Positions 16,463 to 40,430 of a stretch of 52,787 nt of DNA are shown here, in pieces. Location: contig CANJRV010000007.1 in assembly GCA_947476825.1 (NCBI GenBank), positions 1 through 52,787 of the forward strand. The letters are read 5' to 3'. The stretch's first letter is position 1. Every line of letters starts with the position of its first letter. The DNA comes from Bacteroidota bacterium (lineage in GTDB: Bacteria; Bacteroidota; Bacteroidia; Chitinophagales; Chitinophagaceae). The notes below the pieces were generated by a model. The model had not been told where the DNA came from and did no database searches. It was given only the letters and a program-made list of their open reading frames with translations. The position numbers were made by a program, and so were the translations under genes.

Positions 16463-16543
16463 ATTGCGGCAACGATTGTAGTGAAAATCCTTTTTGCTGG
16501 CTCTGCAGCAAAAAGATTGTAGCGAAAAGCGTGTATGCCGCCC
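16463..16543 (+). repeat. Approximately 80-nt imperfect palindromic repeat, family B copy 1
   Basis: attgcggcaacgattgtagtgaaaatcctttttgctggctctgcagcaaaaagattgtagcgaaaagcgtgtatgccgccc; also at 31005-31087 (inverted) and 36694-36774. Confidence 0.85.
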
Positions 16544-18615: not shown

Positions 18616-18691
18616 AGTAAGGGTATTATTTTTTTTGTAATGTTTTTTTTAGACAGCAAGTATACAAACAAATTGGATAAGGACGGAATAA

Positions 18692-18856
18692 AGCAGACTT
18701 CGTGCCTCAGTCGCTTCATCCTCAGTCGCCATAAAACGATGCTCTTACAAAAAGTAGATATCGTATTTGGAAGACTAGATTTTCCAACCAATATTTCTTA
18801 AACGAAAAACGCCATAAAGAAAAAAAAATCTTTATGGCGCATCTGCTATTTCGGGG
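18692..18856 (-). repeat. tRNA-downstream hairpin repeat, family C copy 1
   Basis: gcagacttcgtgcctcagtcgc ... aacgaaaaacgccataaaga-8A-tctttatggcgcatctgctatttcgg; 11-bp perfect stem 18810-18820/18829-18839. Confidence 0.75.
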
Positions 18857-18904
18857 ATATAGCAGAATTCAATATATAGTAGATTCCTTTTACATTCCTT
18901 TTGT

Positions 18905-19031
18905 TTCAGTCGCTATACCACGATATAGCGATGCGCTTAAATAAAGTAGATGTCGTGCCTCCATCACTTTATTTCATAAACGAAAAACGCCCTAAATTAA
19001 TGAATCAATTTAGGGCGCATCTGCTATATCG
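18905..19031 (-). repeat. tRNA-downstream hairpin repeat, family C copy 2 (includes likely terminator of tRNA-Cys)
   Basis: cagtcgctataccacgatatagcgatgcg...gtagatgtcgtgcctc...aaacgaaaaacgccctaaatt-8nt-aatttagggcgcatctgctatatcgg; 11-bp stem 18988-18998/19007-19017. Confidence 0.75.
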
Positions 19032-19032
19032 G

Positions 19033-19103
19033 AGGTCTCGACCGGATTCGAACCGGTGTAGAAGCTTTTGCAGAGCTTTGCCTAGCCACTCGGCTACAAG
19101 ACC
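19033..19103 (-). tRNA. tRNA-Cys(GCA)
   Basis: Reverse complement GGTCTTGTAGCCGAGTGGCTAGGCAAAGCTCTGCAAAAGCTTCTACACCGGTTCGAATCCGGTCGAGACCT folds as cloverleaf; anticodon loop CTGCAAA. Confidence 0.95.
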
Positions 19104-31004: not shown

Positions 31005-31087
31005 GGGCGGCACCCACGCTTTACGCTCCAATCTTTTTTGCTTCAGAGCAAGCAAAAAAGGATTTCCGCTGCAATCGTTGCCGCAAT
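31005..31087 (-). repeat. Approximately 80-nt imperfect palindromic repeat, family B copy 2 (inverted)
   Basis: gggcggcacccacgctttacgctccaatcttttttgcttcagagcaagcaaaaaaggatttccgctgcaatcgttgccgcaat. Confidence 0.85.
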
Positions 31088-36693: not shown

Positions 36694-36774
36694 ATTGCGG
36701 CAACGATTGTAGTGAAAATCCTTTTTGCTTGCTCTGAAGCAAAAAGATTGGAGCGAAAAGCGTGTGTGCCGCCC
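36694..36774 (+). repeat. Approximately 80-nt imperfect palindromic repeat, family B copy 3
   Basis: attgcggcaacgattgtagtgaaaatcctttttgcttgctctgaagcaaaaagattggagcgaaaagcgtgtgtgccgccc. Confidence 0.85.
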
Positions 36775-39983: not shown

Positions 39984-40056
<73 letters not shown>

Positions 40057-40062
40057 CGGAAC

Positions 40063-40136: not shown

Positions 40137-40210
40137 TTTCAATCAAATTTAGTGTTCTAAAATTGAAAAATAATCATTCGAAAGATTCGACTTTGCAATG
40201 ATGCTTCCAC

Positions 40211-40313
40211 CCGAACAGCAGATCCGCCATAAAGATTTTCCTCTTTATGGCGTTTTTCATTAGCGTATTGCTATTTCTTGGTATGGCAACAGAGGCTCGA
40301 AGTCTGCTATACC
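40211..40313 (+). repeat. tRNA-downstream hairpin repeat, family C copy 3
   Basis: cagcagatccgccataaaga-6nt-tctttatggcgtttttcattagcgtattgctatttcttggtatggcaacagaggctcgaagtctgct; 11-bp stem 40225-40235/40242-40252. Confidence 0.75.
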
Positions 40314-40430
40314 ACTTAACACTCATTTCCCCTCTTTATGACGTTATTGTGTTCATGAAATAAAGGAATGTAGGCATGAAATCTACATTATTTTGACATA
40401 TCGCTATATCGATATTGGTTGATAAAAGCC
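40314..40430 (+). repeat. tRNA-downstream hairpin repeat, family C copy 4 (degraded)
   Basis: ctctttatgacgttattgtgttcatgaaataaaggaatgtaggcatgaaatctacattattttgacatatcgctatatcg aligns with the reverse complement of copy 2. Confidence 0.55.

Follow-up and report, generated by a model that had tools for sequence, protein, structure and literature searches.

Two tandem hairpin units behind tRNA-Cys in a Bacteroidota genome: probable remnants of a tRNA-end mobile element linked to a GIY-YIG nuclease

The short array of hairpins that follows tRNA-Cys in the stretch of DNA analysed here (52,787 nucleotides, the window) consists of two units that are probably decayed, tandem, ORF-less copies of a mobile element that resides at the 3' ends of tRNA and tmRNA genes and provides the terminator of the host tRNA. 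A mobile element with a GIY-YIG nuclease fits the evidence better than a stable host RNA does. A full-length element would consist of the tRNA 3' end, a first hairpin (P1), a second hairpin (P2) and a gene for a GIY-YIG protein of ~100 amino acids, with a second tRNA 3' end at the distal border of some sites.

The array behind tRNA-Cys

Since tRNA-Cys lies on the minus strand (19103..19031), the array is 3' of it and is to be read on that strand, which is also the strand of the T-tract TTTTTCGTTT. The two hairpin units that a first-pass annotation had placed downstream of the tRNA are present: a 63-nt repeat (18792-18854 and 18970-19032) recurs with 81% identity at a spacing of 178 nt, and both unit stems are terminator-like on the minus strand, in the form GCGCC..GGCG TTTTTCG, where shuffled sequence gives 0.5 expected. 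The array ends at ~18681 (Table 1).

In each unit, P1 is a long bulged stem that encloses a textbook intrinsic terminator, and P2 is a hairpin whose inner stem has 4 bp and which bears a single bulged T. The P1 of unit 1 has the form and the position of the family's P1, beginning at the base right after the CTCC of tRNA-Cys; unit 2 has a P1 of the same form, pushed away from the tRNA by unit 1. Both P2 hairpins have the bulged T and the GANN..NNTC inner stem. The core of the first P1 scores as a terminator adjoining tRNA-Cys, which supports the suggestion that one of the hairpins terminates that transcript. It had also been suggested that the flanking modules go beyond what a terminator needs, and they do: P2, the non-terminator module, is the better conserved part.

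Other details of that description needed revision. The stem interiors are not completely different, as ATAAAGA and CTAAATT have TAAA in common; what stands is that three of the seven pairs have changed and that all three changes are compensated. One of the proposed shared modules, GCAGACTTCGTGCCTC, is only loosely matched, its second copy being GTAGATGTCGTGCCTC, and another, TCGCTATA..TATAGCGA, is intact solely at 18910-18931. Taken together, the shared modules are parts of one hairpin, GC/GT-GANN-loop-NNTC-T-GC/AC with its bulged T, which both units contain (18973-18940 and 18720-18687, minus strand).

No GIY-YIG ORF follows P2 at tRNA-Cys. Because the ORF is missing here, and because ORF-less copies also exist elsewhere, the two units are filed as ORF-less derivatives rather than as full elements. 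No copy of the tRNA 3' end is detectable distal to the array, and the ancestral tRNA-Cys terminator is not recognisable past it. (A tRNA-Cys 3' relic in or after the array, TTGAATTCTGCTATATCCCC, was suspected by eye and dropped when the shuffle test proved not significant.) The units have no match among Rfam families at the gathering score. They resemble Flavo-1 RNA (RF01705), a structured, repeat-like element of Bacteroidota, in kind, and differ from it in sequence and structure. Three Flavo-1 RNAs lie in the window, at 16464-16540 (+), 31008-31086 (-) and 36695-36771 (+), and their sequences are unrelated to the hairpin units.

Table 1. Features of the two loci of the element family in the window
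Feature	Position	Strand	Basis or remark
tRNA-Cys(GCA); the hairpin array is bordered on the left by its 3' end ..GAGACCTCC	19031..19103	-	ARAGORN, Rfam
Unit 1, P1 + P2, 178 bp, ORF-less	18853..19030	-	repeat spacing 178, fold
P1 of unit 1; outer arms GATATAGC-A-GATGCGC (19030-19015) and GCGCATC-GCTATATC (18936-18922), bulged A	18922..19030	-	
Intrinsic terminator of unit 1, GCGCCCTAAATT..AATTTAGGGCG TTTTTCG	18981..19018	-	present terminator adjoining tRNA-Cys
P2 hairpin of unit 1, AATAAAGT-GATG-GAGGCACGA-CATC-T-ACTTTATT	18940..18973	-	fold; model score 42.8 bits
Probable degenerate second P2-like arms of unit 1, GGTATAGC ... TCT-GCTATATCC	18855..18919	-	suggested by sequence
Unit 2, P1 + P2, about 172 bp, ORF-less	18681..18852	-	repeat, fold
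Intrinsic terminator of unit 2, GCGCCATAAAGA..TCTTTATGGCG TTTTTCG	18804..18840	-	terminator scan
P2 hairpin of unit 2, GATGAAGC-GACT-GAGGCACGA-AGTC-T-GCTTTATT	18687..18720	-	fold; model score 40.6 bits
tRNA-Ala(GGC), at which the family's other locus in the window lies	39984..40057	+	ARAGORN
Possible remnant of a tRNA 3' end, decayed (GATTCGACTTTGCAATGATGCTTCCACCC), ahead of the element at tRNA-Ala	40184..40212	+	analogy with tRNA-Val of G001 and with L156/L163/L154; shuffle test not significant
P1 (terminator at 40226-40257) and two P2 hairpins (40280-40313, 40358-40394), all in decayed form	40213..40394	+	DNA search, fold
Pseudogene of the family's GIY-YIG nuclease, interrupted by one in-frame TAA	40462..40788	+	57-60% identity to the intact Daejeonella ORF

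Covariation, tRNA association and the nuclease gene

Compensatory change is strong in P2. In a set of 14 P2 sequences, 97.6% of the cells are paired; shuffling lowers this to 74.5% and sliding to 36-44% (the slid control flatters the set, since the sequences were hand-picked from foldable copies). In 40 cells both sides are altered. A covariance model of P2 run over 395 Bacteroidia genomes found 22 matches of at least 33 bits. Fifteen of these lie within 340 nt downstream of a tRNA or tmRNA gene on the same strand, against an expectation that simple arithmetic puts at about 0.2% (45 tRNAs x 340 nt, divided by the two strands of about 4 Mb); with the training sequences left out, the proportion is 7 of 12. 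In the window's own genome there are exactly two matches, the two hairpins behind tRNA-Cys; some of those in other genomes are away from tRNAs. The first-pass annotation had proposed just such a search, and had been prepared to give up its reading if there were no enrichment near tRNAs or if only the terminator were conserved. P2 is the more conserved module and is strongly enriched 3' of tRNA and tmRNA genes. Chance is excluded as the origin of the units by the covariation across genomes together with the model matches.

These results bear directly on the proposal that ordinary tRNA-Cys terminators were duplicated in tandem and that the palindromes flanking them are accidental. Both P1 cores do score as terminators, and a terminator follows most tRNAs in the window's genome. 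The 25 other tRNAs examined there, however, end in unrelated terminators and lack P2; conservation is higher in P2 than in the terminator, and P2 turns up in different families with changes that compensate each other; and the linkage to a GIY-YIG gene is left unexplained. We therefore consider the proposal very unlikely: as a full account it is refuted by the covariation of P2 and the model matches, and it holds for the P1 core only. A family of tRNA terminators used throughout the host was also considered and rejected, the other tRNAs of the genome carrying unrelated ones.

The link to a nuclease comes from the relatives of the units. A DNA search of the window's genome found the family elsewhere only 3' of tRNA-Ala, other matches being short (E 0.01-0.6). 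That copy, the third in the window, is more decayed than the tRNA-Cys units. When 84,980 genomes were scanned for exact occurrences of the P2 core GATGGAGGCACGACATCTGC, one further real copy emerged, in another genus, Daejeonella; P2 lies there immediately after tmRNA, and an intact GIY-YIG gene of 108 amino acids comes next. (Exact matches in Methanothrix, Archaeoglobus and Streptomyces, with no tRNA nearby, were judged to be chance.) A search of 295 Bacteroidia genomes with this nuclease (E<=1e-30) added, apart from the copy in the window, 10 homologues from 9 genomes; with the Daejeonella query this makes 11 outside the window's genus. The domain is PF01541 (E about 1e-15), and the catalytic residues Y10, Y21, R31 and E67 are invariant in family members, the window's copy being broken. 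Plasmids and viral contigs searched contained no match to the family.

All 11 homologues have the P1-P2 layout upstream, at a tRNA or tmRNA 3' end or at a relic of one, in the order tRNA/tmRNA end, P1, P2, ORF, with a nuclease of ~100 amino acids. The left border is the 3' end itself, the relic ..TCCACC or, once, a contig start at ..CTCCACC; the hosts are tRNA-Gln, -Ala, -Asn (twice) and tmRNA. P1 has the form (T)GAAGC-A-GA-terminator-TC-GCTTC(A). P2, in one to three copies, is TGAAGC-GANN-loop-NNTC-T-GCTTCA, decayed or not evident at one locus (L156). Elsewhere, ORF-less copies stand behind tRNA-Lys, -Arg and -Ser. At four of 19 loci the 3' end of the tRNA appears once more after the element, namely at tRNA-Lys (L171, 16 nt identical), tRNA-Ser (L188), tmRNA (L156) and tRNA-Val (L106, in the sister species G001); at the other 15, tRNA-Cys among them, no such copy is detectable. 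The outer 3' arm of P1 shows greater complementarity to the 3' end of the tRNA at its locus than to the corresponding ends at other loci (permutation p = 5e-5), as in GTGGAGC against GCTCCAC.

P1 and P2 could alternatively act as RNA, as a cis-regulatory or small RNA leader that controls the GIY-YIG gene or tRNA processing and that spread by recombination only. The paired bases are strongly conserved, P1 and P2 would be transcribed because they lie between the tRNA and the ORF, and base pairing is possible between P1 and the 3' end of the tRNA. Against this, a single motif placed on opposite strands (bulged A in P1, bulged T in P2) suits recognition as DNA better than as RNA, ORF-less copies persist beside tRNAs, and the occupied sites differ among congeners. 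We consider an RNA leader unlikely.

A further alternative is a repeat of the REP/BIME type moved by a RAYT (a Y1 HUH transposase), in which the GIY-YIG gene would merely travel along. It is somewhat harder to credit. Like the REP, BIME and REPtron sequences (PMC3733652), the element pairs two inverted, imperfect palindromes, each with a bulged base, and it occurs as gene-less copies and in subfamilies with compensatory changes; P1 and P2 are inverted bulged hairpins much as REP/iREP pairs are, and there are RAYT-like genes in the window's genome. One genome (G475) has, in addition, 25 dispersed P1-type hairpins (L203, L212-L220), and none of those read has a tRNA immediately upstream. The family is not exclusively tRNA-bound. 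The element differs from REPs and REPtrons, however, in having no adjoining RAYT, a tRNA-end site in place of dispersed ones, and a terminator within P1, and the GTAG/CGTC tag was not seen at its hairpins (in the aligned P2 set, and by eye in P1 and P2). P1-P2, moreover, is carried by all 11 GIY-YIG homologues, and the RAYT-like genes checked in the window's genome are flanked by other palindromes. Those read there number four (L037, L038, L040, L041), and their flanking palindromes are of at least three types. The dispersal in G475 indicates that a P1-type motif can behave like a REP.

Occupied and empty sites in related genomes

Comparison with congeners identifies sites with and without the element. 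In five of them (G003, G005, G006, G009, G012) the tRNA-Cys site keeps its neighbour gene and lacks the units; the tRNA is followed by a plain terminator of unrelated sequence. The units at tRNA-Cys are therefore lineage-specific insertions. The sister species G001, represented by a MAG labelled Chitinophaga pinensis, has both loci of the window and two nearly identical further copies. One of these, an element of 165 bp behind tRNA-Val, separates the tRNA from its old terminator; in the window's genome that terminator comes immediately after tRNA-Val. The far border of the element is marked by a degenerate 3' end of tRNA-Val (CCGTGCTTCCACC; 0/100 and 1/300 in shuffles). The GIY-YIG genes of this subfamily are broken both in the window's genome and in G001, so these copies look like fossils.

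At the same tRNA-Val, where G001 has its 165-bp element, the window's genome has an island of ~9.8 kb with a serine recombinase, and the hairpins might on that account be decayed att sites left by larger serine or tyrosine recombinase islands at tRNA genes. We rate this as highly improbable. In the flanks that were read, what comes after the P1-P2 units is either a GIY-YIG gene or nothing, the tRNA-Val end of the island is without P1 or P2, and P1-P2 is conserved as a unit across families. The island itself (C18:15146-25099, L019/L020, at tRNA-Val(tac)) contains a large serine recombinase, an AbiEi/AbiEii toxin-antitoxin pair and a TOTE-type primase-helicase, and the tRNA 3' end is duplicated together with the terminator at its far end.

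Proposed mechanism, known systems and other tRNA-end elements

How a tRNA-end element of this kind might move can be outlined from its architecture. The GIY-YIG protein may cut at the tRNA 3' end and so cause insertion of the element, repair or strand transfer then placing it in a way that leaves the 3' end of the tRNA complete. P1, a bulged-A stem with an intrinsic terminator in its loop, would stop the tRNA transcript; because the terminator lies inside P1, an inserted copy would replace that of the host tRNA and be neutral for the tRNA. P2 is the same bulged stem reversed, with a bulged T. That one bulged motif occurs on opposite strands suggests DNA recognition: P1 and P2 may be the DNA hairpins that the nuclease recognises and that mark the ends of the element, and one protein could recognise both. 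ORF-less copies may have been moved in trans or made by deletion, and tandem units, as at tRNA-Cys, could result from repeated insertion at one tRNA.

Several known systems share parts of this scheme. Free-standing GIY-YIG homing endonuclease genes (with an I-TevI-like domain; SegA-E of the T-even phages) also encode a small nuclease with conserved Tyr/Tyr/Arg/Glu, and a site-restricted selfish spread is plausible. The element differs in its target, the tRNA or tmRNA 3' end, in its two bulged hairpins, its own terminator, its ORF-less derivatives and its lack of an intron, and in residing in bacterial chromosomes, with no relative in the viral contigs searched. Integrative islands that target tRNAs (by integrases; tycheposons) likewise insert at the tRNA 3' end, leave the gene intact and can produce a second tRNA 3' end; the element, in contrast, is 0.1-0.6 kb long, lacks an integrase and has a GIY-YIG gene or none. 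A literature search for GIY-YIG proteins with tRNA, tmRNA or repeats, of open-access scope, found no description of such an element, and the GIY-YIG superfamily survey (PMC1564403), searched for mentions of tRNA and Bacteroid, yielded none of the combination. The family is accordingly called undescribed, provisionally, because preprints and subscription journals lay mostly outside the search.

A bolder proposal, possible but doubtful in our view, is that these sequences constitute a separate class of prokaryotic element, in which a GIY-YIG nuclease would recognise paired, opposite, bulged DNA hairpins and insert at tRNA and tmRNA 3' ends, the pairing of the P1 arm with the 3' end of the target tRNA serving as guide and the built-in terminator making insertion harmless. 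If the mobile-element interpretation is true, a very small GIY-YIG-based element joins the known tRNA-targeting ones, and many odd hairpins and terminators behind Bacteroidota tRNA genes are domesticated element parts. It would also offer a hypothesis for the harmless spread of a tiny nuclease gene through essential genes, the terminator being replaced and the tRNA end left intact. The match of the P1 arm to its own tRNA 3' end makes the choice of target directly testable.

Two further kinds of sequence behind tRNA genes came to light. A second GIY-YIG type lies behind tRNA-Pro, -Asp and -Val, each time with a terminator (L113 in G001, C26; L133 and L134 in G003; L083/L126 and L075 in G009). 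A duplicated tRNA 3' fragment of 15-27 nt is clear for tRNA-Pro and -Asp in G001 and G003, and G001 has three tandem copies, spaced by 378 and 430 nt. In the window's genome, about four tandem units of ~128 bp lie 3' of tRNA-Val(gac) (L022:10034-10681, C21), each with CAGAGCG..terminator and the tRNA's own 3' end (..CCATCCAC); they are perhaps another family of tRNA-end elements.
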